The position numbers and the translations under genes were made by a program. From positions 1 to 43,710 of IMG/VR virus record IMGVR_UViG_3300005471_000008: a stretch of 43,710 nucleotides of DNA; one strand, given 5' to 3'. Below, one piece after another: positions 1 through 43,710 of the stretch (the first letter of the stretch is position 1; every line of letters begins with the position of its first letter). The notes beneath the pieces are model-generated. The model did no database searches and had not been told where the DNA came from. It saw only the letters and a program-made list of their open reading frames with translations. Origin of the DNA: a virus.

Positions 1-90
1 AAGTCAAAGGCGCCGGCTCACCCGCGGGAACGGACCAGAGCGCGACGCCTCGACGAGGAGGTCATCGTGACCCACAACACCGGCAACCGC
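1..90. repeat. Terminal direct repeat, left copy
   Basis: The first 90 bases are identical to the last 90 (43621-43710). This shows that the sequence closes on itself, with a unit length of 43,620 bp. The repeat contains the ribosome site (AGGAGG at 56-61) and first codons of the first early gene, so it lies inside an operon. That fits an assembly overlap on a circular molecule better than a true phage terminus, although a short terminal redundancy cannot be excluded. Confidence 0.95.
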
Positions 91-5781: not shown

Positions 5782-6005
5782 CCACCCTCGCGCTGGACGA
5801 CCAGCTCCTGGCCGTCCTCCGCGACGCCCAGGGGTTCCCACTGTCGACCCTGCAGGTCTGCGAGCGGGCCGGGCCGATGGCATGGCCACCCGACGCCGTC
5901 ACCTGGAAGCGGCTCGACGCGCTCGCCAAGGCGGGGCGGGTCGAGCGGGTCAAGCTGGCTGGCTGGCGGCAGGTCTGGTGGCGAACATCCGGCGGTGCAC
6001 GGTGA
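5769..6005 (+). CDS. Winged-helix-like small protein, 78 aa
   Basis: GTG start at 5769, inside the end of the preceding membrane gene. The sequence DDQLLAVLRDAQGFPLSTLQ followed by a second helix, KRLDALAKAGRVERVKLAGW, and RQVWWR resembles a winged-helix domain: helix, recognition-like helix, basic wing. It has no other domain and may be a small DNA-binding regulator. It overlaps the resolvase-like gene by GTGA at 6002-6005. Confidence 0.55.
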   Translation: MGRLTTLALDDQLLAVLRDAQGFPLSTLQVCERAGPMAWPPDAVTWKRLDALAKAGRVERVKLAGWRQVWWRTSGGAR

Positions 6006-6340
6006 GCGCGAGCCGGCGCGCCGGCGCCCGCTTCGAACAGCAGGTCGCCGACTACCTCGCCGCCAACGGCTTCCCCTACGCCGAACGGCGCCACTCCAAC
6101 GGCGCCAAGGACCGCGGCGACATCGCCGGCGTCCCCGGCTGGGCGCTCGAGGTGAAAGCCGAGCGGGCGATGGACCTGGCCGGCTACATGGCCGAGGCCT
6201 CCGTGGAGGCCGACCACGCGGGCACGCGTTGGTTCGCGGCGATCGTCAAGCGGCGCCGCAAGCCCACCGCGGAGGCATACGTGGTGCTGCCGTTGCGCCT
6301 GTTCGCCGAGATGCTCCGGGAGGACGGTGAGCGCGCATGA
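6002..6340 (+). CDS. PD-(D/E)XK Holliday-junction-resolvase-like nuclease
   Basis: A 112-residue protein with the compact resolvase-type nuclease core: Glu12 in an N-terminal helix, Asp40 in DRGDIAGVPG, then Glu50-Val-Lys52 in WALEVKAE, followed by a helix and a strand (TRWFAAIVKRR). The size and DxnExK spacing match phage and archaeal Hjc-like resolvases. It probably resolves branched DNA made by the upstream annealing protein before packaging. Flanked by GTGA and ATGA overlaps (6002, 6337). Confidence 0.78.
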   Translation: MSASRRAGARFEQQVADYLAANGFPYAERRHSNGAKDRGDIAGVPGWALEVKAERAMDLAGYMAEASVEADHAGTRWFAAIVKRRRKPTAEAYVVLPLRLFAEMLREDGERA

Positions 6341-6816
6341 CCGCTCCCTATGCCCAGGGCACGGAGGTCAGCCCGGAGCGGTCCAAGGCCGAGATCGAGC
6401 GGACCCTGAAGCGCTATGGCGCCGAGGCGTTCCTCTATGGCGAGAACCAGCATGGCGTCCTGATCCAGTTCGCCGCCCACAACCGCATCGTGCGGTTCGT
6501 CCTGCCGCTACCGGCCCGCGGCGACTTCGAGGACTACCGGGCCCGCAACAACGTCGTGGTGTCCGGCCAGAAGGCATATGACGCCGAGGTGCGGCGCCGC
6601 TGGCGCAGCCTCGCCAACGCGATCAAGGCGAAGCTCGAGGCGGTCGAGAGCGGCATCGTCGACTTCGAACGCGAGTTCCTCGCCCAGATCGTCCTGCCAG
6701 ACGACTCGACCGTCGGCCAATGGTTCGGGCCGCAGCTCGAGCAGGTGTACCGCAGCGGCGCGATGCCGGCGATGCTGCCTGCGCTTGAGCGTCCACCGCG
6801 GGAGGGGCAGCCGTGA
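6337..6816 (+). CDS. Conserved actinophage-type hypothetical protein, 159 aa
   Basis: ATG in an ATGA overlap with the resolvase-like gene. The sequence has an N-terminal alpha/beta part (SKAEIERTLKRYGAEAFLYG; IQFAAHNRIVRFVLPLP), then a helical region (RRRWRSLANAIKAKLEAVES) and a strand (EFLAQIVLPDDSTVGQW). I recall similar sequences from actinophage and prophage early operons, annotated only as phage proteins; that is memory, not a search. Soluble, no cysteine cluster or catalytic signature. It sits between resolvase and methyltransferase genes, suggesting a DNA-metabolism role. Confidence 0.7.
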   Translation: MTAPYAQGTEVSPERSKAEIERTLKRYGAEAFLYGENQHGVLIQFAAHNRIVRFVLPLPARGDFEDYRARNNVVVSGQKAYDAEVRRRWRSLANAIKAKLEAVESGIVDFEREFLAQIVLPDDSTVGQWFGPQLEQVYRSGAMPAMLPALERPPREGQP

Positions 6817-7199
6817 CCGCTCCCACCCTGGCAGTGGCCACCACCACAGCACTTGCCCGCGACGGCCTGGAGGTCCACACCATCTACCAAGGCCTCCTGC
6901 GCGAAGGCAGCCAGAAGGGCCGTGAGGTGTGGCGCTGCGACCACGCCCACCCACAGCGCCCCGGCGCCCGAGCGTGCGCCCTCGGCGAGCTCCGCCAGCG
7001 CGCCCTCCCCGAAATGAAAGGCAACTGGGACGGCTGGACCCACACCGTCCGCGACTGCCTCGCCCCCGGCGGCACCCGCCAGATGCCCGTGTGCCCCATG
7101 TGCGCCAAGGGCCTGAAACACACCCAGGCCGAACACGACCGGCTCGAAAAGGCCGTCCCCGCAAAGGAGCTGCAACGACGTGACCGCACCAACCGCTGA
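6813..7199 (+). CDS. Cys/His-containing hypothetical protein, 128 aa
   Basis: GTG in a GTGA overlap. After about 40 residues come a first Cys/His group (WRCDHAHPQRPGARACALGE) and, further on, a second (VCPMCAKGLKH). Together these could form a zinc site, suggesting nucleic-acid or protein binding. The C-terminus is helical and basic. It overlaps the next gene by 20 bases. Unrecognised family. Confidence 0.6.
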   Translation: MTAPTLAVATTTALARDGLEVHTIYQGLLREGSQKGREVWRCDHAHPQRPGARACALGELRQRALPEMKGNWDGWTHTVRDCLAPGGTRQMPVCPMCAKGLKHTQAEHDRLEKAVPAKELQRRDRTNR

Positions 7200-7578
7200 C
7201 ACCACCCAGACCCTCGACGCGTGGGCCAAGCTCGACCTGTTCGGCCGGCAGACCGCCGCCGGCCACGTCAGCGAGGTCAAGATCGCCGGCGCCGACTTCC
7301 TCCGCCTGCACATCCCCGCCCAGGACGGCAAGCAGGCCCGCACGATCGACTACAACCCCGCCGCCGTCTACTCGATCGAGCATGTCGATGAGGAGACCGC
7401 CCGCGCGGCCGCCCGTCTCGACCAACCACCCCTACCTGTCGAGTCGTGGAGCGCGCGGCGCCTGCTCGGCGTCGGCACCAGCCAGCTCGCCCTCGGCACC
7501 CCCGACCCCGACCCCGACGCCGACGCCGGCGACGAGGACCTGGACGACAAGGCATTCAGGGACTTGGACGACGAGTGA
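7180..7578 (+). CDS. Acidic-tailed hypothetical protein, 132 aa
   Basis: GTG start at 7180, 20 bases before the previous stop. The N-terminal 75 residues look like a beta-rich domain (HVSEVKIAGADFLRLHIPAQ; RTIDYNPAAVYSIEHVDEE). The last 35 residues form a strongly acidic tail of repeated Asp-Pro and Asp/Glu runs. Acidic tails of this kind occur in phage DNA mimics and SSB-like proteins, but neither can be claimed here. The stop overlaps the next start as TGATG at 7576-7580. Confidence 0.6.
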   Translation: MTAPTADTTQTLDAWAKLDLFGRQTAAGHVSEVKIAGADFLRLHIPAQDGKQARTIDYNPAAVYSIEHVDEETARAAARLDQPPLPVESWSARRLLGVGTSQLALGTPDPDPDADAGDEDLDDKAFRDLDDE

Positions 7579-7805
7579 TGGCCGCCAAGTCGACACCAGG
7601 AGTTGAGGCGGCCCGCCCGGTTGCCGCGCCACTCGACAAGTGCGCCCGGCTCCTCGGCGTTCCCCTCGAACAGCTGAAGCCAGTCGCCGCCCAGGTCGAG
7701 CCATACCAGCATGCGGACGGCCACCCAGTCTGGAGCCTGTTCCTCCTCGAACGCCAGCTCCACCCGGAGCGGTCCGGCCGACGCCGACGAGGTGGGGCAG
7801 CATGA
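7578..7805 (+). CDS. Small hypothetical protein, 75 aa, with basic HPER tail
   Basis: ATG in a TGATG junction. The C-terminal 25 residues (RQLHPERSGRRRRGGAA) closely match the tail of the protein encoded at 8059-8193 (RELHPERYTRRRRKGEQA). The two tails are therefore related by duplication or shared descent. The N-terminal part (LGVPLEQLKPVAAQVEPYQH) may be a short helix-turn-helix-like element. Function unknown; the basic tail suggests nucleic-acid binding. Confidence 0.6.
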   Translation: MAAKSTPGVEAARPVAAPLDKCARLLGVPLEQLKPVAAQVEPYQHADGHPVWSLFLLERQLHPERSGRRRRGGAA

Positions 7806-8062
7806 GCGACCGGCCACCCCCCAACGTGCTGTACCAGCAGGCCGTCGTCTCCCACGGCGCCCGGGGTACCGAGGCGGTCCGACGCGAGTACCACCGCCTC
7901 ATGGTCGAAGCGGGCCACCTCGTCCCCCGCCCCGCGTGCACCTGCGGCAACCCCGAAGACCCCTCGATGCACCTGCAGGACTGCCCCCGCTACCAGGACA
8001 ACGACCGGCGCCTGCCCTGCGGCTGGCTACCCGGGGAGAGTCATCGGGGTGGTGCGCGGTGA
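7802..8062 (+). CDS. Cys-rich hypothetical protein, 86 aa
   Basis: ATG in an ATGA overlap. The middle of the protein carries CTCGNPEDPSMHLQDCPRY, with a further Cys ten residues on (LPCGW). Three to four Cys plus His could bind zinc. The first 35 residues are helical (VLYQQAVVSHGARGTEAVRR). Unrecognised; it belongs to the run of small zinc-binding candidates in this operon. Confidence 0.55.
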   Translation: MSDRPPPNVLYQQAVVSHGARGTEAVRREYHRLMVEAGHLVPRPACTCGNPEDPSMHLQDCPRYQDNDRRLPCGWLPGESHRGGAR

Positions 8063-8193
8063 TGGTCCTCAAGCTCATCCCAGGCGACCAGGTCTTCGGC
8101 CCTGACGGTCGCAGCGCCGTGTTCGTCGCCCTGGACCGCGAGCTCCACCCGGAGCGCTACACCCGCCGCCGCCGAAAGGGGGAGCAGGCATGA
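8059..8193 (+). CDS. Small hypothetical protein, 44 aa, paralogous tail
   Basis: GTG at 8059 overlaps the preceding stop as GTGA; an ATG one codon later (8062) is an equally possible start. The peptide ends in RELHPERYTRRRRKGEQA, nearly the same as the end of the protein at 7578-7805. It appears to be a shortened relative of that protein. It overlaps the next gene by ATGA at 8190-8193. Confidence 0.5.
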   Translation: MMVLKLIPGDQVFGPDGRSAVFVALDRELHPERYTRRRRKGEQA

Positions 8194-8654
8194 AGGTCTA
8201 CTTCGCTGCCCGCTACAGCCGCCGCCGCGAGCTGTGCGTCTACCGCGCCGAGCTGCTGAGGCGCGTCGAGTGGGTCACGGTCACCTCACGCTGGCTGGAT
8301 GGCAATCACCAACTCGACGACCAAGGCGTCCCGATCGGCGAGCACGGAGAAGCCCTCGTCGAAAACGGCCATGGCGCCGAGGCGGCACAGCTTCGCGCCA
8401 AGTTCGCCCTCGACGACTACCAGGACGTGCTCGTCGCCGACCTGCTCGTCGCCTTCACCGAGCCACCCCGCAGCGACAAGGGGCGCGGCGGTCGCCACGT
8501 CGAGTTCGGCATCGCGCTTGGCGCCGGCCGCCAGATCGTGGTGATCGGCCCGCGCGAGAACGTCTTTACCTGGCTGCCGACCGTGGCGCACTTCGACACC
8601 TGGGGTGAGTTCGTCGCCTTCTGGCTGCCGGAGCCATCGGAGACTGCCCTGTGA
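8190..8654 (+). CDS. Nucleoside 2-deoxyribosyltransferase-like protein
   Basis: A 154-residue Rossmann-like protein beginning MKVYFAARYSRRRE, with a central acidic segment (FALDDYQDVLVADLLVAF) and the signature GRGGRHVEFGIALGAGR, followed by a strand IVVIGPRENVFTWLP. This order (KVYFAaP-like strand, aspartate loop, xEFGxAxAxG) is that of nucleoside 2-deoxyribosyltransferase-like and related phage nucleotide-binding proteins; Glu in HVEFG would be the candidate catalytic residue. It could exchange or salvage bases for phage DNA synthesis, but related proteins without proven activity are common in phages. Confidence 0.7.
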   Translation: MKVYFAARYSRRRELCVYRAELLRRVEWVTVTSRWLDGNHQLDDQGVPIGEHGEALVENGHGAEAAQLRAKFALDDYQDVLVADLLVAFTEPPRSDKGRGGRHVEFGIALGAGRQIVVIGPRENVFTWLPTVAHFDTWGEFVAFWLPEPSETAL

Positions 8655-8878
8655 GCGTGACCGCCGCGCCGGCGTGGCGGCTGGTCCGCCTCAGCCCCGC
8701 CCACCCCCTCTGGCACCTGGAGCGCGTCGGTGCCCAGCGCACCGAATGCGGCCGCGACTGGCGCGAACCGATCCGCCACACCCTCACCGAACCACTCCCA
8801 ACACCACGCTGCACCACCTGCGGGCCACGGATGCTCGGCGAGCTCGCACAGCAGCTCCCGCTCATCAAGGACGGCTGA
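8651..8878 (+). CDS. Hypothetical protein with Cys pair, 75 aa
   Basis: GTG in a GTGA overlap. The product has a Trp-rich N-terminal half (WRLVRLSPAHPLWHLERV), one isolated Cys in RTECGRDW, and CTTCG near residue 55. Three Cys plus His make a zinc site possible. Soluble, unrecognised. The stop overlaps the next start (TGATG at 8876-8880). Confidence 0.55.
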   Translation: MSVTAAPAWRLVRLSPAHPLWHLERVGAQRTECGRDWREPIRHTLTEPLPTPRCTTCGPRMLGELAQQLPLIKDG

Positions 8879-9105
8879 TGGTCACCCTGCTGAGCGTGGG
8901 CAACTCGGAGGGGGAGCGCCGCTGCGACGCCCGCTGCCACGAGGCCACCGAGCCTGACTGCGACTGCATCTGCGGTGGCCGCTACCACGGCAAGGGCCTC
9001 ACCCACGCCCGCCAGCAGCTCGGCCAGGACATGCGCGACGGCCGCTTCGGCGAAGACATCAAGGTGCTCGTCGAGAACCTGTGCGAGCAAGGACAGCTGC
9101 TATGA
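8878..9105 (+). CDS. Cys-rich hypothetical protein, 75 aa
   Basis: ATG in a TGATG junction. Residues about 15-35 form a dense Cys/His cluster (CDARCHEATEPDCDCICGGR) typical of a small metal-binding loop. A helical C-terminal half follows (THARQQLGQDMRDGRFGEDI). It directly precedes the methyltransferase (ATGA overlap at 9102). I recall similar Cys-rich proteins near phage methyltransferases, but no function can be assigned. Confidence 0.6.
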   Translation: MVTLLSVGNSEGERRCDARCHEATEPDCDCICGGRYHGKGLTHARQQLGQDMRDGRFGEDIKVLVENLCEQGQLL

Positions 9106-11042
9106 GCCTCGACCTGCTGGTCTACGATCAGTTCTGCGGCGCTGGCGGGTCCAGCCAGGGCATCCGCCGTACCGGCGCGATCGTGCGGCTGGCAATGAAC
9201 CACAACGCCACCGCGATCGCCAGCCACCAGGCGAACTTCCCCGACGTCGATCACGAATGCGAGGACGTCCGCAAGCTCGACCCGCGGAAGTTCCCCCGGG
9301 TCGACATCCTCGTCACCTCGCCAGAGTGCAAGGCCCACACCTACTCACGCGGCAAGGGCCGTCGTGACCAGGAAGAGCCGCTGTTCGAGACCGCCAAGGA
9401 GCGGGATGCGCGGCTGGCGGCGCAGCGCAGCCGCGCGACGATGGACCAGGTCACCCGCTGGATGTGCGCCCACCGCTACGAGGCCGTCATCCTCGAGAAC
9501 GTCGGCGAGCTGGTCGACTGGATCCCCTTCGACGCCTGGCTCCGCGAGGTCGACAAGCTCGGCTACCGGGTCCAGTTCTGCTGGTTCAACAGCATGTTCT
9601 TCGGCGGCCAGGACGACGGCCCCCACCCGCCGCAGTCCCGCGACCGCCTGTACTTGGTGCTCACCAAGAAGGGCAACCGCAAGCCCGATCTCGACTTCCG
9701 GCCGCGTGCCTGGTGCCCGGACTGCCAGACGGAGGTTGACGCGGTGCAGCGACTCAAAGACCCGCACCGGCGCCGGAAGATGTGCTATCGCCGCCAGTAC
9801 GACTACCGCTGCCCGACCTGCGGCGCCGAAGCGTCCCCCTACGTCGCGCCCGCCGCCACGGCGATCAACTGGGCGCTGCCGACCACCGTGATCGGGGAAC
9901 GGAAGTCCCCCCTCAAGCCCGCCACCATCGCGCGCATCCGGGAGGGACTGATCCGCTACGGGTGGGCGCCGCAAATGGTTCCTGTCGAGCGGCCCCACCG
10001 GCAGGGCGAGATCGAGGTGAAGGTTCCACGGCTGGCCAGCCTCCCGGCGCGGACCCAGACCGGCCGGAACGAAACCGGGGTGCTCCAGCCGCCGCTGATG
10101 ATCACCAACCGGATCCACTCGACCCCCAAGACGGTCGAGGACCCGATCACTACCATGCAGACGGGGCTGCACCACCTGCTGGTCACCGAGCGGCGCAACA
10201 CCGTCCCGCGCAGCCCGGAGGAGCCCGCGTCAACCATCGCTGCGGGCGGCACCCACCATCTGCTCGTGGAGCGCCCCGACGGGCTCGTCGTGTCGAACTA
10301 CTCGCCCGGGTGGGTGCGCCCCGCCGGGAAGTTGCCGACCGGCGCGATCACCGGTGTCGACCATCACGCACTGCTGCTGCCGACCAATGGGAACCTGCGC
10401 CGCGGCCGCGCCGCCCAGGAGGAGCCGGCGCCGACGCAGACCGGCGACAAAGGCAACGCTGTCATCCAGCTCCCCCTCATCGACGCCTACGACGGCCTCG
10501 CCCGCTCCGTCGACCGAGTCATGCCGACCCAGACCGGCGTGCAGGGCGACGGGCTGCTGGTGCCCTCCGGGGGCGGCTGGGCCGACCGCGCCACCGGCAC
10601 CGACGACCCGTTCCCCACCCAGACCGGCAAGGAATGCCGCGGGATGGTCCGCCTCCCCGACGGGATGGTCGTCCAAGTCGGTGGGAACACGTGGACCCGG
10701 CCCGGGTCGACGTGCCGGGTCCGCCCGGTGGAGTGGCCGATGCGCGCGCAAACCGGTACCCGCTCCGAGGCGCTGGTCACCATCCCGCCCGACTTCCTGC
10801 TTCCGTACCGGCCACCAGCTCCGCCGTTCCACGGCCAGGTCGACGCGGCCGCCCTCGACGAGCTCGTCAACGCATGCAGCTACCGCATGCTGACCTGGCA
10901 GGAGATCCGCTCGGTCATGGGGTTCGACCCCGGCTACATCCTGCACGGCAACGGCCGCGAGAAGGTCTACCAGCTCGGCCAGGCCGTCACCCCGCCCGTC
11001 ATGGCGTGGATCTTCCGCCGCGTTGCGGAGTCGCTGTCATGA
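9102..11042 (+). CDS. DNA cytosine-5 methyltransferase, phage type
   Basis: A 646-residue C5-methyltransferase. Motif I is FCGAGG (from residue 11); motif IV appears as TSPECKAHT with Cys76 the presumed nucleophile in place of the usual PPC; motif VI is LENV (Glu132); motif VIII is QSRDRLYLVL; motifs IX/X lie in RMLTWQEIRSVMGFDPGY and GQAVTPPV near the end. A zinc ribbon (CPDC ... CPTC, about residues 206-243) and a long region with repeated TQTG elements (starts near 318, 351, 445, 476, 506, 549) fill the recognition part. No restriction enzyme accompanies it, so it probably protects phage DNA from host cleavage. It overlaps neighbours on both sides. Confidence 0.93.
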   Translation: MSLDLLVYDQFCGAGGSSQGIRRTGAIVRLAMNHNATAIASHQANFPDVDHECEDVRKLDPRKFPRVDILVTSPECKAHTYSRGKGRRDQEEPLFETAKERDARLAAQRSRATMDQVTRWMCAHRYEAVILENVGELVDWIPFDAWLREVDKLGYRVQFCWFNSMFFGGQDDGPHPPQSRDRLYLVLTKKGNRKPDLDFRPRAWCPDCQTEVDAVQRLKDPHRRRKMCYRRQYDYRCPTCGAEASPYVAPAATAINWALPTTVIGERKSPLKPATIARIREGLIRYGWAPQMVPVERPHRQGEIEVKVPRLASLPARTQTGRNETGVLQPPLMITNRIHSTPKTVEDPITTMQTGLHHLLVTERRNTVPRSPEEPASTIAAGGTHHLLVERPDGLVVSNYSPGWVRPAGKLPTGAITGVDHHALLLPTNGNLRRGRAAQEEPAPTQTGDKGNAVIQLPLIDAYDGLARSVDRVMPTQTGVQGDGLLVPSGGGWADRATGTDDPFPTQTGKECRGMVRLPDGMVVQVGGNTWTRPGSTCRVRPVEWPMRAQTGTRSEALVTIPPDFLLPYRPPAPPFHGQVDAAALDELVNACSYRMLTWQEIRSVMGFDPGYILHGNGREKVYQLGQAVTPPVMAWIFRRVAESLS

Positions 11043-11326
11043 GCGCCCTGCTGCAGTGTCCCCGCTGCCAGGTGCCCCTCCGCGAGCATCCGCTCCATGA
11101 GTGCCCCAACTGCCACCGCTGGGCCAACCACCTCGAGCCCGACGGGCGCTGCCTGGACTGCAACTTGGGCTGGACCCACTGCCCCACCCACGCCCGCCTC
11201 GAACACGCCGGCTCCGACCATCGCAAGGTCACCGCCCACGAGGTCCTCGCCACCTTCCGCCAGCACCAGCAGAAACCCCCACCTGTCCCTCTGACCGGTC
11301 CCCGAGGTGTCAGTGCCCCACGATGA
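11039..11326 (+). CDS. Zinc-ribbon protein, 95 aa
   Basis: ATG in an ATGA overlap with the methyltransferase. Residues 7-46 hold three CxxC pairs (CPRC, CPNC, CLDC) plus CPTH, enough for two zinc sites of the ribbon type. A basic His/Lys-rich helical tail follows. Such double-ribbon proteins usually bind nucleic acid or a partner enzyme. It overlaps the helicase gene by 20 bases and may serve replication. Confidence 0.7.
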   Translation: MSALLQCPRCQVPLREHPLHECPNCHRWANHLEPDGRCLDCNLGWTHCPTHARLEHAGSDHRKVTAHEVLATFRQHQQKPPPVPLTGPRGVSAPR

Positions 11327-12785
11327 CCACCAGCAACCACCACCGCACAACCTCGAAGCCGAGGAGGCGGTGCTGGGCGCCATGCTCCTCGACCCCGGCG
11401 CCCTCCAGCACGCCCTCATCACGCTGGATAGCACCGACTTCTACCGGCCCGCCCACCGCACCATCTTCAACACCTGCGCTTCGCTCGAAGCCGCCGGGCG
11501 TCCCGTCGACCCGATCACCGTGGCCGCCCACCTGCTCGCCAGCGGCAACCTCGCAGGCGTCGGCGGCCACCCGTTCATCCACACCCTCGTCTCCAGCGTC
11601 CCCACCATCGCCCAGCACACCCACTACGCCGAGCTCATCGCCCAGGCCGCCGCCGCCCGGCGCCTCATCGACGCTGGCACCCGCATCAGCCAGCTCGGCC
11701 ACGAACAGGGCCTGGACCCCGACAAGGCCCACCAGATCGCCCTGGAGCTCCTCACCCAGCTCGGCACCGCCAGACCCCACGCTCTCACCAGCGACCGCCG
11801 CCTCCAGGAGGCCGCCATGTTCATCTTCGACCCGACCGTCGACCTTCCCGCCGTGTGGGGCAACGGCCAAGAGGTCGCATGGGCCGCCGGCGAGAGCCTC
11901 GTCCTCGCCGGCCCCCAGGGCGTCGGCAAATCCACCCTCGCCCAGCGCCTCGTCCTCGCAAGGATCGGCATCGGCCCCGCCCAACTGCTCGGCATGCCCG
12001 TCGCCCGCACCTCAAACCGCGTGCTCTACCTGGCCTGCGACCGGCCCGGCCAGATCGCCCGCTCCATGCGCCGCATGGTCACCGAAAACGACAGCGCCAC
12101 CCTGAACGAGCGGCTGGCCATCTGGCGAGGCCCGCCCCCCGTCGACCTGGCCAAGGAACCCCGCGCACTACTCAGCCTGGCCCGCAACGCCGGCGCCGAC
12201 ACCGTCGTCATCGACTCCCTCAAAGACGCCGCACTCGACCTCGTCAAGGACGAAGTGGGCGCCAGGTACAACCAGGCACGCCAAATCGCCCTCACCGAAG
12301 GCATCGACCTGCTGGAATTGCACCACCAGCGAAAGGCCGCAGCAGACAACAAACGGCCACGCAAGCTCGACGACGTCTACGGGTCAAACTGGCTGACCGC
12401 CGGAGCCGGCTCCGTACTCCTATTGTGGGGCGAAGCCGGCGACCCGATCGTCGAATTGAACCATCTAAAGCAGCCAGCCGAAGAAGTCGGGCCGATGAAG
12501 CTCCTCCACGACGCCCCGACCGGGTCAATCAGCATCCAGCAAAGCGTCGACCTGCTCACCCTGCTCCGCACCCAGCCAGGCCTCACCGCCGCCGACGCCG
12601 CCCGCCTCCTGTTCGACGTTGAGGGCCGCTCACCGGAGCCCAAGGAGGTCGAGAAGGCACGGCGACGCCTCGACAGCCTCGTCACCCGCGGCCTCGCCAA
12701 GCTCCAGTCCGGCACCCGCGGCCGCCCCGGCGGTGCCGCCAACCCAGCGACCTACCACCCCATCGTCGATCTCGAGGCGTCATGA
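11307..12785 (+). CDS. DnaB-like replicative helicase / RecA-fold ATPase
   Basis: A 492-residue protein in three parts. Residues about 10-115 match the DnaB N-terminal domain (PPHNLEAEEAVLGAMLLDP; FYRPAHRTIFNTCASL). Residues about 180-390 are a RecA/KaiC-like ATPase with Walker A GPQGVGKST (Lys208), Walker B TVVIDS (Asp303) and LELHHQRK as a candidate sensor. The last 70 residues form a winged helix (GLTAADAARLLFDVEGRSPE). It probably unwinds DNA at the phage fork or acts as an initiator-helicase of the RepA type. GTG at 11307 gives the full N-terminal domain. Repeats follow directly downstream. Confidence 0.85.
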   Translation: MSVPHDDHQQPPPHNLEAEEAVLGAMLLDPGALQHALITLDSTDFYRPAHRTIFNTCASLEAAGRPVDPITVAAHLLASGNLAGVGGHPFIHTLVSSVPTIAQHTHYAELIAQAAAARRLIDAGTRISQLGHEQGLDPDKAHQIALELLTQLGTARPHALTSDRRLQEAAMFIFDPTVDLPAVWGNGQEVAWAAGESLVLAGPQGVGKSTLAQRLVLARIGIGPAQLLGMPVARTSNRVLYLACDRPGQIARSMRRMVTENDSATLNERLAIWRGPPPVDLAKEPRALLSLARNAGADTVVIDSLKDAALDLVKDEVGARYNQARQIALTEGIDLLELHHQRKAAADNKRPRKLDDVYGSNWLTAGAGSVLLLWGEAGDPIVELNHLKQPAEEVGPMKLLHDAPTGSISIQQSVDLLTLLRTQPGLTAADAARLLFDVEGRSPEPKEVEKARRRLDSLVTRGLAKLQSGTRGRPGGAANPATYHPIVDLEAS

Positions 12786-31792: not shown

Positions 31793-32028
31793 GAGAGTGG
31801 CTCGTCCCCATCGTCGCCAGCCTGCTGGGCGGCACGCTCATCCAGGGCCTGGTGCTGCTGCTGCGCGCCGGGCCGGACCGCCAGGCCGTCGTCGCCGGCG
31901 GCGCCGAGAAGGCCGTGCTGTCGCTGGAGCGGAGCCTCAGCCATGCGGAGCGGGAACGCGACCGGCTCGCCGCCCGCCTCGAGCTGGTCGAGGCCGAATA
32001 CGCCACCTATCGGAGGGAGCACCCCTGA
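31789..32028 (+). CDS. Single-span membrane protein with coiled coil, 79 aa
   Basis: GTG in a GTGA overlap. One N-terminal transmembrane segment (WLVPIVASLLGGTLIQGLVL) is followed by a charged helix likely to form a coiled coil (EKAVLSLERSLSHAERERDR; AARLELVEAEYATY). This arrangement is common for the second membrane protein of actinophage lysis cassettes (holin partner or spanin-like). It overlaps the Acb2-like gene (TGATG). Confidence 0.65.
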   Translation: MREWLVPIVASLLGGTLIQGLVLLLRAGPDRQAVVAGGAEKAVLSLERSLSHAERERDRLAARLELVEAEYATYRREHP

Positions 32029-32258
32029 TGGACCTTGAAGGCCGCCACCCGGCCACCGTGAGCATCGCCCGGTTCTTCGCCTACGACCACCTGCCGGAGC
32101 CGATGCGGACCATCTCCATGTACAGCGAAGCGCTGGCCGAGGCGATGATCCGTGAACTCCCGGACGGCCCGGAGCTGACCACTGGGCTGCGGAAGCTCCT
32201 GGAGGCCAAGGACTGCTTCGTCCGCGCCGCGCTTCCCACCGAGGACGGTGGGGGCTGA
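32028..32258 (+). CDS. Acb2/Tad1-hairpin-like protein, candidate anti-CBASS sponge
   Basis: A 76-residue, two-helix protein. FFAYDHLPEPMRTISMYSEA, then LAEAMIRELPDGPELTTGLR and KLLEAKDCFVRAAL follow the pattern of the Acb2/Tad1 hairpin family: HLP/HPP loop, long helix, PxGPE turn, LRKLxEAK helix. Known Acb2 proteins form hexamers that bind cyclic di- and trinucleotide signals and so silence CBASS and Thoeris-type defences. Family recognition is from sequence pattern; binding activity here is inference. It lies between two lysis-cassette genes, with TGATG junctions on both sides, so it is expressed late unless a separate promoter exists. Confidence 0.7.
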   Translation: MDLEGRHPATVSIARFFAYDHLPEPMRTISMYSEALAEAMIRELPDGPELTTGLRKLLEAKDCFVRAALPTEDGGG

Positions 32259-33295
32259 TGGCCATCACCCTCGGCATCGACGTCAGCTCCTACCAGGACC
32301 CGAGCGGGTCCGGCGACCGGAACCTGATCGACTGGAGCCAGGTCGCGCCCACCCCGTACGACTTCGCGCTCGCGCGGATGAGCATCGGTCGGGGCACCCT
32401 GGACGAGGACGGCCGGCAGAACCTCCGCGCGATGGGAGGCCGCATCCCCGTCCTGGGCGCCTACGGGGTCGTCGGCATCAGCGAGCCGGTCGAGGATGGC
32501 GCGAAGCTGCTCGTCGACGAGATCGCCGCGTGTGGCGTGGATCCGCGCAGCATCCTGGTGATGCTGGACGCGGAGAAGTTCGGGAACGGCTCCCACCCCT
32601 CGCGGCGGCAGATCAACCGGTACGCGATCCAGCTCCATACCGAGCTCGGCACCTGGCCCCACGCCTACGTCCCCGACTGGTTCCTCGACCAGCTCGCCGC
32701 CGCCGGCGACGGCGACGGGACGGTCCGCGGCCTGGAGCTGGCCAACTGCCTGTGGGTGCCGTCCGAGTACCTGCCGGCGCCGTGGACCGAGGACCGGATC
32801 CGGACCAAGCGGCCGACGAACCTGCGCGGCTTCGCAGGCCTGGCCTGGCACCAGTTCACCAGCTCCGGGTCGGTCCCGGGGATCACCGGCCGGGTCGACC
32901 TCAACTGCTACTACGGCACGCTCACCCAGCTCCGGGCCCAGCTGCTCGGCGGACAGGAGGAGATCGACTTGACCAAGCAGGAGTTCATCGAGGCGTGGCA
33001 GCAGCTCACCGCCCAGGGCATCATCTCGGGCCAGGACAACTGGGCCGACTACTTCCGGGTCGCCCCCGACCGGCTCGCCAAGATCCTCGCCCAGGAGGAG
33101 GCCAACGGGGCGGCGCTGGCCAAGCTGGGCACGCTCCTGGAGGCCGGGCTGAAAGTCGAGGTCACCCTCGACCTCGCCACCGCGTCGCCGCAGCAGCTCC
33201 AGGACCTCGGCAGCGCGATCGGTGACCGGCTCGCCATCCTTGGCGCCGGCTACACCGGCACGCTCGAGCTCACCCCGAAGACACCGGCGACGTGA
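32258..33295 (+). CDS. Endolysin, GH25 lysozyme
   Basis: A 345-residue muramidase. ITLGIDVSSYQDPSG contains the family's first acidic residue (Asp8), LVMLDAEKFGNG holds Asp104 and the catalytic Glu106, and AWHQFTSSGSVPGITGRVDL with DLNCYYG closes the barrel. From about residue 235 a helical C-terminal domain follows (KQEFIEAWQQLTAQGIISGQ), probably for wall or partner binding. No signal peptide, so export depends on the holin. It cleaves the peptidoglycan MurNAc-GlcNAc bond at the end of infection. Confidence 0.92.
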   Translation: MAITLGIDVSSYQDPSGSGDRNLIDWSQVAPTPYDFALARMSIGRGTLDEDGRQNLRAMGGRIPVLGAYGVVGISEPVEDGAKLLVDEIAACGVDPRSILVMLDAEKFGNGSHPSRRQINRYAIQLHTELGTWPHAYVPDWFLDQLAAAGDGDGTVRGLELANCLWVPSEYLPAPWTEDRIRTKRPTNLRGFAGLAWHQFTSSGSVPGITGRVDLNCYYGTLTQLRAQLLGGQEEIDLTKQEFIEAWQQLTAQGIISGQDNWADYFRVAPDRLAKILAQEEANGAALAKLGTLLEAGLKVEVTLDLATASPQQLQDLGSAIGDRLAILGAGYTGTLELTPKTPAT

Positions 33296-34156: not shown

Positions 34157-34195
34157 AAGAGGCCCCGCGCTCCTTCGGGAACCGCGGGGCCTCTT
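34157..34195. terminator. Strong (probably bidirectional) transcription terminator
   Basis: AAGAGGCCCCGCG at 34157-34169 pairs perfectly with CGCGGGGCCTCTT at 34183-34195, a 13-bp stem with a 13-base loop. It lies between the convergent ends of the late operon and the minus-strand gene at 34203, so it can stop both transcripts. Confidence 0.85.
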
Positions 34196-34202
34196 CGCGT
34201 GC

Positions 34203-34775
34203 TCAGGCGCTGTCGACTGAGGTGACGCGGGCGGTCAGCTTCTTGCTCGAGGAGCTGGTCGACGCGAACTCCTCCCGATCCACCTGGTAGTCGGTGCCCT
34301 GGATGGTGAGGGTGTTGATCTGCGGCCCGTCCTCCCCGCCGCGGACCTCATAGACGACCTCCCAGGTGGTGCTCGGATCCAGCGGCTCGCCGGAGTAGCC
34401 AACGCCGATGCGGAAGGTGAGGTTGCAGCCGGCCGACCCGAAGCACTCCTTGGACAGGGTCTTGACGGTCAGCTTGAAGTCGCTCGGGGTCGGCGTGTAC
34501 GCGGCTGGCGTGGCCTGCTCGGTGGCCGCCGACGTGTCGGCAGGCTGGCTGGCGATGGTCGCTGGCGTGGCGGTGGCCGCCTGCTTGTCGCCGGTCGACC
34601 CGCCGGCCATGAGCATCGCCACCAGCACGATCAGGCTGACGATGAACAGGGCGATTCCTGCGGCGACACCGATGGCGATCTTGGTGACGAGGAACTGCCG
34701 CTTCTGCTTCGGCGGTTTGGCCGGGTTGGGGTAGGGCGGCGGTGGCGCGGGGTTGGGTCCCCACTGCTCAGACAT
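34203..34775 (-). CDS. Membrane-anchored surface protein, 190 aa
   Basis: The second of two adjacent ATGs (34775) is preferred: AAGGAG lies six to seven bases upstream. The N-terminus is Pro-rich (SEQWGPNPAPPPPYPNPAKP), then one transmembrane segment (IAIGVAAGIALFIVSLIVLV), a Thr/Ala-rich linker and an extracytoplasmic beta domain with two Cys (KTLSKECFGSAGCNLTFRIG). Such proteins are widespread in actinomycete genomes. In a prophage this could be expressed in the lysogen and alter its surface (superinfection exclusion is one possibility). Function not demonstrated. Confidence 0.7.
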   Translation of the reverse strand: MSEQWGPNPAPPPPYPNPAKPPKQKRQFLVTKIAIGVAAGIALFIVSLIVLVAMLMAGGSTGDKQAATATPATIASQPADTSAATEQATPAAYTPTPSDFKLTVKTLSKECFGSAGCNLTFRIGVGYSGEPLDPSTTWEVVYEVRGGEDGPQINTLTIQGTDYQVDREEFASTSSSSKKLTARVTSVDSA

Positions 34776-35014
34776 CATGGTCTCCTTGCCCGGCATGCCC
34801 AGGCGAATGGGTGATGAGAGGATTGTGAGCATGTGCGTGATGCGCGCGGATCAGGTGTCCTGCGTAGGATCGGCTACGGCGCCTGCTGGTCGTCTCCACG
34901 CCCTCGGATCCCCTCTCGCCAATCCCCCATAAGAGATCTTATGTAAACCTACGCTATTTCCGGGCAGGTCAACCGTCACTCCCCCGCCACCGTCCGTCCC
35001 GCTCGGCAGTGTGG
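34776..35014 (-). promoter_or_regulatory. Intergenic region with short palindrome
   Basis: 239 bp between two minus-strand genes, with a marked A+T-rich spot. CATAAG-AGAT-CTTATG (34928-34943) is an inverted repeat suited to an operator; on the minus strand TAAGAT within it could be a -10 element. It likely drives the surface-protein gene separately from the upstream operon. No gene is seen in it. Confidence 0.5.
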
Positions 35015-35542
35015 TCACCGAGGTGCTTGGCGCGGGGACTGTCGGGGGCCGCGGGGGCCCGGGCGGCGGAACGTCGTGCCGGCCGCCTTCAGCCGGTGGT
35101 AGATCGTGGACTGGTGGACTCCGTAGGTGGCGGCCAGCTCCTGTGTCGTCTGGCCCTCGTCGTAGGCCCGCTGGAGCGTCTGGTCGTCCGGTAGCCGCCT
35201 GGTCGCCGGGTTCGGCGGGCGTCGGTGCCCGACGATCCAGCCGGGCGGGCGGGCCGGGATGCTGTAGCGGGTCAGCAGTGTACGCACCCCGTCTTTGGAG
35301 CGGCCGACCCGCTTGCCGACCTCGGCCATCGTGAGCTGCCGGTCCACGTACAGGCGTACCAGCAGCTCCTTGCTGATCGTGATCGGCCGTGGCTGGCGGA
35401 TCCCGTAGCTGTTGCGCCAGCGTCCCACCGTCGGCGGTGACACTCGGGCGACCTCGGCGAGCTCGATATCGCTCAGCCGCCATTCGGTTACCAGGAACGC
35501 CAGCACCGGACGTGGTGGCCGCCGCCGCGGCGGCGCGCTCAC
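35015..35542 (-). CDS. Multi-HTH DNA-binding protein, 175 aa
   Basis: GTG start at 35542 (AGGGGAAG just upstream on the minus strand); longer reading upstream is Arg/Gly-rich and covers a hairpin. Three helix-turn-helix-like units follow: LSDIELAEVARVSPPTVGRW, LTMAEVGKRVGRSKDGVRTL and TTQELAATYGVHQSTIYHRL. The last resembles the resolvase/transposase-type HTH. There is no catalytic domain, so it is a DNA-binding regulator or structural protein. It lies downstream of a hairpin that separates it from the SpdB-like operon. Confidence 0.75.
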   Translation of the reverse strand: MSAPPRRRPPRPVLAFLVTEWRLSDIELAEVARVSPPTVGRWRNSYGIRQPRPITISKELLVRLYVDRQLTMAEVGKRVGRSKDGVRTLLTRYSIPARPPGWIVGHRRPPNPATRRLPDDQTLQRAYDEGQTTQELAATYGVHQSTIYHRLKAAGTTFRRPGPRGPRQSPRQAPR

Positions 35543-35608
35543 CGGGCTTCCCCTGGCAGATAAGCTTGCGGGTTGGTGGCCATGGAAGTCGCATCCTTCC
35601 TGGTCGCT

Positions 35609-35638
35609 TGCCCCCAGCCGTTGGCGCGGCTGGGGGCA
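35609..35638 (-). terminator. Terminator-like hairpin after SpdB-like gene
   Basis: TGCCCCCAGCCG at 35609-35620 pairs perfectly with CGGCTGGGGGCA at 35627-35638 (12 bp, six-base loop). It lies about 95 bases after the stop of the gene at 35734 (minus strand) and before the next gene. No clear T-run follows on the minus strand; terminator or attenuator. Confidence 0.65.
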
Positions 35639-35733
35639 CCTTCGTCTTTGTGCAACTGCGTCGTGCAAGTGCGGCGGGTCGCTCCCCCGCCGTGAACGGT
35701 CAGCGGCGGCGGCTACTCCCCCGCCTCTATCCA

Positions 35734-36462
35734 TCAGCGCTTCCCGTTGGTCGAGATCCCCCGCTCTGCCTTTACCTGATCCAGGGCAACGTTCGCCCAC
35801 GAGCGGTCGATTGCGAGCCCTTCGTGGCTCAATTCCTTGACCACGGCCGAGCCGGTCGCCTTGGCCAGCGCCGCATCATCCTTGAGACGCAATTTCGCCC
35901 GGGCAATCTCCGCCACTGACACCTGTCCGCTTTGACCGGATCGCGGAGACGCTGACCTGCGGAGCTGCGCGGCGAGTCGGCCCGGCACCTCACGCACTGG
36001 CGGAATGTCGCCGATGTCGTAGCCCTGGATGTGTGCGACCCACCTGCAGATCGCCACCAGCACATTGAACGCGAGGATCATCAGCACCGGGGGGAGTGCC
36101 GCGATCAGCATTCCCACCTTGTCATTGCCGGCATGCAGGATGTTGATCCAGATGCTGCCAACCGCACAGATCAGCATGATCGTCAGCGGCCCGAACGGGT
36201 AGCGGCTGATCTTGCGCGGATCCGGCGCCAACGGGCGCAGCGCCACCGCGACGATCGCGGCGAATTCGGCGATCAGAAAGCCGCTGTCCAGGATGAGCGG
36301 ATACACCTGCGCCGCCTTGGGGGAGTAGTGCCCATGGGCGAGCACCAAGTGGTAGGCGGCGTCATAGGACAGTGCGACCGCCACGGCGGCAAGCCCCGCA
36401 GTGAGAATCGCTGCGGCGACGATGCCGACCTTGGCGATCGGTGGGAAGTCGGCCCACTCCAT
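35734..36462 (-). CDS. DUF2637/SpdB-like membrane protein
   Basis: A 242-residue protein with about four transmembrane segments in its first 140 residues (AKVGIVAAAILTAGLAAVAV; LILDSGFLIAEFAAIVAVAL; LTIMLICAVGSIWINILHAG; PPVLMILAFNVLVAIC). The segment SYDAAYHLVLAHGHYSPKAA is the hallmark of DUF2637 proteins, which include SpdB spread proteins of actinobacterial conjugative plasmids. The cytoplasmic C-terminus (SVAEIARAKLRLKDDAALAK) could bind DNA. Known SpdB-type proteins help transferred plasmids pass between mycelial compartments. Why a phage carries one is unknown. It overlaps the upstream membrane gene by one base. Confidence 0.85.
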   Translation of the reverse strand: MEWADFPPIAKVGIVAAAILTAGLAAVAVALSYDAAYHLVLAHGHYSPKAAQVYPLILDSGFLIAEFAAIVAVALRPLAPDPRKISRYPFGPLTIMLICAVGSIWINILHAGNDKVGMLIAALPPVLMILAFNVLVAICRWVAHIQGYDIGDIPPVREVPGRLAAQLRRSASPRSGQSGQVSVAEIARAKLRLKDDAALAKATGSAVVKELSHEGLAIDRSWANVALDQVKAERGISTNGKR

Positions 36463-36959
36463 TACGTCTTCCTCCTCGGGGTGGTGGTCGTGGTGGGGGA
36501 CAGGCGCTTGGCCTCGTCGTTGGCCTGCTGCAGCACGCAGGTCACCCAGGCGCGCAGCCGCCGGATCCCCGGGCAGCCATCACCGACCGCCAGCGCCTGC
36601 GCCTGGGCCGGCGGGTGCGCGGCCGGCTTGGCGGCGCTCTTGGCCGTCGGGTGCCCGGCGGGGGTGGTGGTCAGCAGCAGGGTGAGCAGCGCCACCGCGG
36701 CGTACTGGGCGAGCATGGCGGCGAGCTGCCGCGGGCCGGCCACGCGGTGCTTGCCGAGCAGCAGCGTCAGCAGCCCGGCCAGGCCGAGCGTGAGCCAGCT
36801 ACGGTTGGACAGGTGAAGGCCCGGGCCCGGGTCGTGGGCGACCACCCAGCCGAAGGCGGTCAGGAAGCCGGCCAGGAGCGGCACCAACCACAGCCAGCGG
36901 GTGCGCGTAGGACCAGCGGGCAGGGGCGCGGGGGCGGGGAGGGCGCGCGGGCGGAGCAT
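36462..36959 (-). CDS. Membrane protein, 165 aa
   Basis: Start at 36959 in a TGATG junction with the small gene upstream. Two or three hydrophobic segments lie in the first 115 residues (WLWLVPLLAGFLTAFGWVVA; WLTLGLAGLLTLLLG; LAQYAAVALLTLLLTTTPAG), then a Lys/Ala/Pro linker and a terminal segment with CPGIRRLRAWVTCVL. It is adjacent to the DUF2637 gene. This is a typical companion membrane protein in actinobacterial plasmid transfer regions, though I cannot name the family. Confidence 0.65.
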   Translation of the reverse strand: MLRPRALPAPAPLPAGPTRTRWLWLVPLLAGFLTAFGWVVAHDPGPGLHLSNRSWLTLGLAGLLTLLLGKHRVAGPRQLAAMLAQYAAVALLTLLLTTTPAGHPTAKSAAKPAAHPPAQAQALAVGDGCPGIRRLRAWVTCVLQQANDEAKRLSPTTTTTPRRKT

Positions 36960-37120
36960 CAGCGCACCCCCTGGATGGTCGTGGCGCTGGTGGCGCGGGT
37001 GGTGAAGACCTCGACGGCCAGGTAGGTGCTGGCGGAGGAGATCACCATGAGCAGGAGCACTGCCAGCACGAGCCGGGCTGTGCGCCGGCGCTTGCGGCGG
37101 CGTCTGGGCTTGCTGGGCAT
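36959..37120 (-). CDS. Small basic membrane protein, 53 aa
   Basis: Start at 37120 with AAAGGA seven bases upstream on the minus strand; the stop overlaps the next start as TGATG. A strongly basic N-terminus (SKPRRRRKRRR) precedes one transmembrane segment (LVLAVLLLMVISSASTYLAV). This inside-positive design predicts a cytoplasmic basic tail and a short outer end. Function unknown. Confidence 0.6.
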   Translation of the reverse strand: MPSKPRRRRKRRRTARLVLAVLLLMVISSASTYLAVEVFTTRATSATTIQGVR

Positions 37121-37144
37121 GCGATGGTCCTTTCGGGTTGGTGG

Positions 37145-37185
37145 CGGGGGCGCGTCCGGGGAGCCGGGCCGGGATGGCGCCCCCG
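37145..37185 (-). promoter_or_regulatory. Hairpin between two small membrane genes
   Basis: CGGGGGCGC at 37145-37153 pairs with GCGCCCCCG at 37177-37185 (nine bp). It lies in the only untranslated gap of the upper minus-strand operon and may moderate downstream expression. Confidence 0.5.
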
Positions 37186-37193
37186 CTCGGGTG

Positions 37194-37304
37194 CTAGCTG
37201 CGGGTGATGTTGTGGGTCCGGTCGTACCGGCGGTTCAGCCGGTTGCCGATCGCACAGCCGATGACGATGGCGAGGAGGAGCCAGAGCACGATCACGAGGT
37301 TCAC
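37194..37304 (-). CDS. Very small membrane peptide, 36 aa
   Basis: GTG at 37304 overlaps the preceding stop as GTGA, with GGGGAG just upstream. The peptide is one transmembrane helix (LVIVLWLLLAIVIGCAIGN) with a basic C-terminus (RLNRRYDR). The coupled start and hydrophobic pattern support it, although it is short. Possibly a subunit of the transglycosylase complex. Confidence 0.5.
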   Translation of the reverse strand: MNLVIVLWLLLAIVIGCAIGNRLNRRYDRTHNITRS

Positions 37305-37930
37305 CTCCCCCCGGCCTGATAGGAGCGGGCGAGGGCGAGGACCTGGTCGACGTACCACCAGGCGTGGTTGTAGGCGTAGATGGCCTGGCGCACGTCCCGC
37401 TGGGCGCCGTTGGCGCACAGCAGCCGCGCGGCTGCGGGGATGGCGTAGCGCGGGTCGTAGACGTGGGCGAGCACGCCGTCGCCGTAGTGGTCCCAGGTGC
37501 TCGGCGGACCATTGCGGATGTTGAATTGCATCGGACCCGAGCAGCACCCGAACGCGTTGACCCCGGAGACGACGCCGGGCGCACGGGAGCGGCCGTGGTT
37601 GGTCTCCACCTTCCCGATGCCGGCCAGCACGCCCCACGGCAGCCCCGGGCATGTCCTGGCGGAGCTGCGGTACAGCGCGAGGTAGGCCGGGGGGATGTCC
37701 GCGCGGCCGAGGTGGCTCGGCACCGCCGGCGGGGCCACCTTCGCCAAGGGCGCGCCCTGCTGGTTGCCCCTGGCGTGCTGGCGGGCGTGACGCGGGGGGG
37801 CCGTGCCGGCCTCCAGGGTGATCCAGCCCTTGTCCTGTGCCACTCCGCCGATGACGACGAGCAGCGCGAACCACGGCGCCAGGATCACCTTGGGCCGCAC
37901 TGGCATCTGCGGGTAGCCGCGCGGGATCAT
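37301..37930 (-). CDS. Membrane-anchored lytic transglycosylase (SLT-like)
   Basis: A 209-residue protein with an N-terminal signal anchor (VILAPWFALLVVIGGVA). The catalytic domain begins near residue 78: IPPAYLALYRSSARTC, VLAGIGKVETNHGRS (Glu109 as general acid), SGPMQFN, and AIYAYNHAWWYVDQVLALAR. This is the SLT/lysozyme-like pattern. Related proteins open peptidoglycan locally for conjugation machines or DNA entry. It differs from the lysis muramidase at 32258 and lies in the SpdB-like operon, so a transfer or envelope-remodelling role is more likely than lysis. It overlaps both neighbours. Confidence 0.85.
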   Translation of the reverse strand: MIPRGYPQMPVRPKVILAPWFALLVVIGGVAQDKGWITLEAGTAPPRHARQHARGNQQGAPLAKVAPPAVPSHLGRADIPPAYLALYRSSARTCPGLPWGVLAGIGKVETNHGRSRAPGVVSGVNAFGCCSGPMQFNIRNGPPSTWDHYGDGVLAHVYDPRYAIPAAARLLCANGAQRDVRQAIYAYNHAWWYVDQVLALARSYQAGGR

Positions 37931-38118
37931 CGGCTCCGGGCGCCGCGGCGCTCCCGCCGCACAACCCTCGCGGACAGCCGCTCGATGAACTGGTAGGCCG
38001 CAGCGTTCTCGGCCTCCAACCCCTCGACCCGGTCCTGCAGCGCGCGGAGCTCCCGCGCGAGGTCCTGGATGTCGACCTGGGCGGCTGGGCGGGTGATCTC
38101 GGGCAGCGTCGTAGACAA
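37927..38118 (-). CDS. Small coiled-coil protein, 63 aa
   Basis: First gene of the minus-strand operon. The middle is a clear heptad-like helix (IQDLARELRALQDRVEGLEA, ENAAAYQFIERLSARV), and the C-terminus is basic (RRERRGARSR). It overlaps the transglycosylase by ATGA. It may form dimers or trimers and bind DNA or a partner. Its promoter should lie in 38119-38390, shared with the divergent gene at 38391. Confidence 0.6.
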   Translation of the reverse strand: MSTTLPEITRPAAQVDIQDLARELRALQDRVEGLEAENAAAYQFIERLSARVVRRERRGARSR

Positions 38119-38139: not shown

Positions 38140-38175
38140 GATCGCCCGGCGCTGGTGGCGCAGCGCCGGGCGATC
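38140..38175. promoter_or_regulatory. Perfect 15-bp inverted repeat (hairpin)
   Basis: GATCGCCCGGCGCTG at 38140-38154 is followed by a six-base loop and its exact complement at 38161-38175. It stands 20 bp upstream of the minus-strand operon. It may be a transcription block between divergent operons, or a binding site. No T-run follows. Confidence 0.7.
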
Positions 38176-43620: not shown

Positions 43621-43710
43621 AAGTCAAAGGCGCCGGCTCACCCGCGGGAACGGACCAGAGCGCGACGCCTCGACGAGGAGGTCATCGTGACCCACAACAC
43701 CGGCAACCGC
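43621..43710. repeat. Terminal direct repeat, right copy
   Basis: Exact second copy of bases 1-90. The gene ending at 43619 runs straight into it, and the partial coding sequence at 43687-43710 is the 5' end of the gene at 67-363. Confidence 0.95.

Follow-up and report, generated by a model that had tools for sequence, protein, structure and literature searches.

A putative conjugation-derived envelope module in an accessory slot of a temperate actinophage

What does a tailed phage do with genes of the kind carried by conjugative elements of actinobacteria? The question is raised by the virus record IMGVR_UViG_3300005471_000008, analysed here over its whole length of 43,710 nt (hereafter the window), in which a minus-strand operon at 34203-38118 encodes, among other proteins, an SLT-type lytic transglycosylase, several small membrane proteins and a DUF2637 protein. 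Our preferred answer, to which we give a probability of about one half, is that the window is the complete genome of a temperate actinophage, with an accessory slot that holds an envelope module from actinobacterial conjugative elements, most likely for DNA spread or wall opening in the mycelium.

An exact 90-bp direct repeat at both ends of the window (1-90 and 43621-43710) indicates a complete circular phage genome of ~43.6 kb. Terminase, portal (Phage_portal profile, 2e-60), major capsid, tail and endolysin genes occur in this one genome together with a serine integrase (phrog_95, 1e-85) and a repressor-like regulator, as in a temperate tailed phage; the virus is an actinophage, and its hosts are soil actinobacteria. 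The major capsid protein (MCP), terminase and tail proteins have homologues in phages, the nearest isolated phage by capsid being Streptomyces phage Dagobah (52%), whose annotation lists no module of the operon's kind. A DnaB-like phage helicase gene was recognised by eye in the gene call, and a pair of DUF6879 and DUF5753-HTH (helix-turn-helix) regulators adjoins the operon. Profiles for FtsK/SpoIIIE (PF01580) and for the coupling protein of type IV secretion systems (T4SS; PF02534) matched nothing in the whole window, so that the absence of a TraB/FtsK translocase, reported in a preliminary description of the operon, extends to the complete circle; no VirB4/VirB6-like gene was seen in the window gene call either. 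By these two profiles the window lacks the translocase or coupling protein of a conjugative or mobilizable element (the TrwC profile was not run there and a transfer origin was not sought). Of the features of an actinomycete integrative and conjugative element (AICE), an integrase is present in the window, and the FtsK/TraB domain (PF01580) is found in its sister phage G099 but not in the window.

Relatives of the transglycosylase and the DUF2637 protein in conjugative elements

The naming of the second operon product as an SLT-type transglycosylase drew no support from a Pfam search, which gave no match, and was upheld by homology, the active-site residue and the fold. Across about 130 aa, its SLT domain shares 44-60% identity with SLTs of plasmids and genomes, and Glu109, of catalytic type, is invariant in 26 of 26 aligned sequences. 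AlphaFold2 modelled a confident domain across most of residues 70-209, for which Foldseek found likeness to the Slt35/MltB lytic transglycosylase and goose-type lysozyme (probability 0.99, with an E value of only about 0.06). Relatives were found by tblastn in 151 plasmid records, and the best-matching ones, on plasmids of Streptosporangium and Embleya, are neighbours of PrgI, VirB4/VirD4-type and 'replication-relaxation' genes; none of the 50,697 phage records searched gave a match. When 84,980 species genomes were scanned with a profile, 447 relatives came up, and T4SS genes (VirB4/VirD4-type) lay within 6 kb of the SLT gene in at least 70 of the best 80 of these 447 loci, while none were matched in 20 control loci (about 322 kb).

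In the SLT tree, the window protein pairs with that of sister phage G037, and the pair falls within the T4SS SLTs (local support 0.96). Fold, conserved Glu and this grouping with SLTs of T4SS loci are those of a VirB1-like enzyme, and a T4SS in the same element was not found; on sequence grounds, the window SLT is assigned to the T4SS (VirB1-like) transglycosylase group. The SLTs of two further phage genomes, G001 and G002, form a separate clade from the window and G037, which suggests that phages would have acquired such enzymes at least twice. A short phage-like SLT (174 aa) together with small membrane proteins was also seen in Amycolatopsis sp. WAC 01376 (5875-12363 of the compared locus), upstream of the apparent start of an AICE-type FtsK protein, and is a possible cellular source of the short form.

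The DUF2637 protein matches PF10935 with 31.3 bits (cut-off 22.8) and has four predicted transmembrane (TM) helices and a cytoplasmic tail. Genomic relatives adjoin TraB/FtsK-like ATPases in AICE-like elements (loci L124, L128 and L132), and SpdB2 of plasmid pJV1 matches the DUF2637 profile with an hhalign probability of 91% (P 9e-7), against 0.6-0.7% for two other membrane proteins used as controls; PF10935 itself is matched by neither pJV1 SpdB2 nor pIJ101 SpdB. The FtsK and DUF2637 elements at L124/L138 (G017:C19, 44103-48620) and L132 (G010:C1, 912527-916072) also hold a solitary tape-measure-like protein of 1181-1505 aa. Long proteins of this kind beside FtsK raised the possibility that L124 and L132 are prophages, which was rejected, as the surrounding gene calls showed no recognisable capsid, portal or terminase gene. 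On pJV1, the third gene of the spd region (1778-2221) matches the TM domain of Pycsar effectors (PF18967, 1.6e-14), hinting at a possible link between spread proteins and defence effectors.

Conjugation-type genes in the same slot of sister phages

A direct search with the window DUF2637 protein found no match in phages, plasmids, viral contigs or genome contigs, because the sequence is too diverged, and the comparison across phages was opened through the SLT alignment and a tail protein instead. Sister contigs were found by the shared window tail protein, and G099 by its capsid protein. The slot compared lies beside the lysis cassette, in the window between that cassette and the repressor/integrase region.

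In G037 (MCP 77% and portal 82% identical to the window) the slot holds an SLT, a 153-aa TM protein, a DUF2637 protein and a WhiB protein, followed by DUF6879/DUF5753 as in the window; the SLT, TM and DUF2637 proteins are 51%, 35% and 37% identical to their window counterparts. Other sisters hold further transfer-type genes. G099 (MCP 88%), a contig of an actinobacterial genome assembly that is circular with a 141-bp repeat, has between its tail and lysis genes a GntR-UTRA regulator, a DUF2637-like TM protein, a 199-aa TM protein, an FtsK/SpoIIIE ATPase (E 2.9e-12) and further TM proteins. G034 has an FtsK-like ATPase 32% identical to that of G099, a 190-aa protein (46%) and a DUF2637-like protein; the 251-aa protein of G099 and G034 is called DUF2637-like because its support is weak (hhalign 82%). 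G051, circular with a 127-bp repeat, combines an FtsK-like ATPase, a DUF2637 protein and a serine integrase. G039, circular with a 93-bp repeat (MCP 71%, tail 59%), encodes a TrwC relaxase-helicase (4e-77) and a VirD4-type coupling protein (T4SS-DNA_transf, 2e-37), with a DUF2637 gene further along; it has a Prim-Pol gene and no integrase was seen. Wider viral-contig scans for the G099/G034 ATPase and the window/G037 DUF2637 protein returned already known contigs only, and the ATPases of G099 and G051 had no close match in phage records.

Because sister phages hold SLT/DUF2637, a TraB/FtsK-like ATPase, or TrwC with VirD4 in this slot, the block is best read, as far as sequence comparison goes, as an accessory module of conjugation origin that recurs in a group of temperate actinophages and not as a chance remnant. 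The neighbourhood comparison proposed in the preliminary description thus placed SLT relatives near T4SS genes, DUF2637 relatives near TraB/FtsK and conjugation genes in the same slot of sister phages, which gives good support to its suggestion of recombination between a phage and a conjugative plasmid or AICE; its term 'remnant' is probably wrong, given that the trio of SLT, TM and DUF2637 genes is intact in G037.

Two side observations concern related phages. In the more distant circular siphophage G001 (L190-L192), an FtsK-like ATPase, a WhiB protein and a membrane protein adjoin the lysis genes; elsewhere in this genome, the genes of an SLT and two TM proteins separate terminase from portal and run on the opposite strand. 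A WhiB-like regulator repeatedly adjoins a transfer-type module (L146, 15739-15984; L149, 12018-12263; L190, 4776-5180).

Layout of the operon

Gene calls and starts were taken from the author's own codon-usage script, which recovered all eight genes of the preliminary description on the minus strand, in place and scored as coding:

37927-38118, minus strand: 63-aa protein of coiled-coil type, whose gene opens the operon (TTG start with an AGGAGG-like ribosome-binding site upstream; open reading frame and codon score; 4-nt overlap with the SLT gene).
37301-37930, minus strand: predicted membrane-anchored SLT lytic transglycosylase of the T4SS/VirB1-like group, with conserved Glu109 and without an NlpC/P60 domain.
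37194-37304, minus strand: 36-aa single-TM protein (GTG start overlapping the SLT stop; codon score and TM prediction).
36959-37120, minus strand: 53-aa single-TM protein with a basic N-terminus (codon score and TM prediction).
36462-36959, minus strand: 165-aa membrane protein with 2-3 TM helices, homologue of the G037 protein encoded between SLT and DUF2637 (35% in alignment).
35734-36462, minus strand: DUF2637 protein, four TM helices and a cytoplasmic C-terminal region (PF10935; TM prediction; 37% to G037).
35015-35506, minus strand: predicted DNA-binding protein with multiple HTH motifs (frame open from 35800; best coding start 35506, alternative 35737).
34203-34832, minus strand: 209-aa proline-rich single-TM protein with an extracytoplasmic domain (phrog_6812/30705), associated by position only.
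38140-38175: perfect inverted repeat with 15-bp arms and a 6-bp spacer, in the intergenic region that lies upstream of the operon and separates it from the divergent DUF6879 gene; candidate operator or hairpin.
34157-34195: perfect inverted repeat with 13-bp arms, lying where the operon end and the lysis genes converge; candidate terminator acting in both directions.

The first six genes (38118-35734, minus strand) are tightly packed, with overlaps of 4, 4, 1 and 1 nt and a single gap of 73 nt, and the HTH and 209-aa genes are more loosely placed, with preceding gaps of 227 and 182 nt. Pfam matches of the 63-aa protein were sub-threshold only and of coiled-coil type (e.g., SlyX/DivIC). The repeat at 38140-38175 is absent from all other loci compared, and Rfam, tRNA and sigma-70 scans were uninformative. 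In the lysis region of the window, a 76-aa gene (32028-32258) has relatives near terminase or portal genes in G037, G099 and G039 and is a moved small gene.

Possible function and comparison with known systems

If the module serves DNA spread, the anchored transglycosylase would open peptidoglycan locally, and the DUF2637 protein with the small TM proteins would form or line a DNA-binding membrane complex, as reported for SpdB2 of pSVH1 (PMC4170104), an integral membrane protein that is reported to form oligomers, bind DNA, interact with TraB and influence pock size. Together they might help element DNA to cross between compartments or mycelia. Since the window genome has no translocase, a pump would have to be supplied in trans, by host FtsK or by the TraB of a resident AICE or plasmid. 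The position of the operon, opposite in strand to the lytic genes and next to the DUF6879/DUF5753-HTH pair, would suggest that it is used during lysogeny. Phages of this group may thus also move DNA by a mating-like route. The broader view, of an actinophage lineage with two modes of spread, as virions and by mating-like transfer through the mycelium, with interchangeable modules in one slot (TraB/DUF2637, relaxase with type IV coupling protein (T4CP), or SLT/DUF2637 with a pump in trans), is tentative, and we consider it rather doubtful.

Several observations weigh against a role in DNA spread or against its generality. The window itself holds neither translocase nor coupling protein, and its relatives are mostly metagenome contigs. 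The slot is empty in one phage, seen three times (L157-L159), where the lysis genes almost adjoin DUF6879/DUF5753, so the module is dispensable. pIJ101 SpdB did not match the DUF2637 profile. DUF2637 genes are found in 44 records of 130-kb Streptomyces phages, and because of this occurrence the domain may serve phages in a way unconnected with transfer; in one of these phages, Karimac, the gene lies near an unrelated transglycosylase. For the tie between DUF2637 and plasmid spread drawn in the preliminary description the findings are mixed: the profile match, the likeness to pJV1 SpdB2 and the TraB neighbours favour it, while the pIJ101 result and the large Streptomyces phages do not, and the domain by itself is no proof of a conjugation role. 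The Karimac genes lie about 2 kb apart on one strand (L208, 5559-8759); this pair was considered as a parent operon and rejected, its transglycosylase being without a match to the SLT profile.

The strongest rival, though an unlikely one, is an envelope module for lysogenic conversion or superinfection exclusion, in which conjugation-type genes co-opted for phage purposes, those of the wall enzyme and the membrane proteins, would change the envelope of the lysogen and so keep competing phages from adsorbing or injecting. The operon does occupy a moron slot, and the DUF2637 genes of the 130-kb phages fit this explanation as well. Further support comes from the 209-aa protein, whose relatives in cluster J mycobacteriophages share its position (on the minus strand, directly after LysA/LysB/holin) and which has weak, sub-threshold matches to superinfection-exclusion-like PHROGs (E 0.036-0.065). 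Counted at first as a member of the conjugation set, this surface protein is, from these relatives, an ordinary actinophage accessory protein outside the conjugation inheritance, and to that extent also speaks against our preferred reading of the locus. Left unexplained by an exclusion module are the translocases, or the relaxase and coupling protein, in the slot of sister phages and the membership of the SLT in the T4SS group.

A decaying passenger, made up of functionless leftovers of AICE or plasmid recombination, is less probable still. Pump and coupling protein are missing, and module content differs among relatives down to the empty slot; however, every open reading frame is intact with good codon scores, the SLT Glu is invariant, and gene order in the trio is kept in G037 despite strong divergence (51/35/37%), with translational coupling retained. 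A virion function, with the SLT and membrane proteins packaged or made early to aid genome ejection through the wall, is highly improbable: SLT domains are used in tail proteins by many phages, but here the operon is transcribed against the structural genes, the SLT is encoded on the strand opposite to the structural and lysis operons and has an N-terminal TM anchor, no relative was seen in virion modules and none for the SLT in phage records, and a separate gene encodes a GH25 endolysin (32258-33295).

Phages and conjugative elements are usually seen as separate transmission strategies. In hyphae, septa and dense mycelium restrict virions, and several circular, syntenic genomes of actinophages that keep conjugation modules in a single slot would allow a direct approach to the question of phage spread by conjugation or along hyphae; they also give the little-studied DUF2637 family a genetically testable phage context. 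FtsK/SpoIIIE-like phage morons (phrog_1358) and phage DUF2637 genes were already known, and no description of actinophages with conjugation modules in a common slot was found in the searchable literature.

Four known systems invite comparison. With the VirB1-like SLTs of T4SS in actinobacterial conjugative plasmids and integrative and conjugative elements, including SLT-NlpC/P60 proteins, the window enzyme shares the SLT-domain identity of 44-60%, the conserved Glu and the TM anchor. The phage SLTs differ in ending after the SLT domain (209-222 aa), whereas most host SLTs measure about 290-450 aa and many have NlpC/P60 or another second domain, and those of T4SS loci sit with T4SS genes, which the window phage lacks. 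With the TraB/Spd modules of pIJ101, pJV1, pSVH1 and AICEs the link is the profile likeness of DUF2637 to pJV1 SpdB2 and the family's place next to FtsK/TraB in AICE-like elements; in G099 a GntR-UTRA regulator and a TraB-like ATPase complete a pIJ101-style set, while the window is without TraB, has an SLT enzyme and lies inside a complete tailed-phage genome. Stanwilliamsviridae (Streptomyces phages Karimac, LukeCage and Wofford) likewise carry a phage-borne DUF2637 membrane protein, but in genomes of about 130 kb, with other neighbours, an unrelated transglycosylase and a DUF2637 protein only about 25% identical to that of G039. Finally, P1-like phage-plasmids with mobilization genes also join a phage genome to conjugation genes, as G039 does with its relaxase and coupling protein; relaxases are known there but rare, a relaxase or oriT having been found in only two P1-like phage-plasmids (PMC10879196), whereas in the actinophages described here AICE-type and T4CP-type genes recur in one slot.

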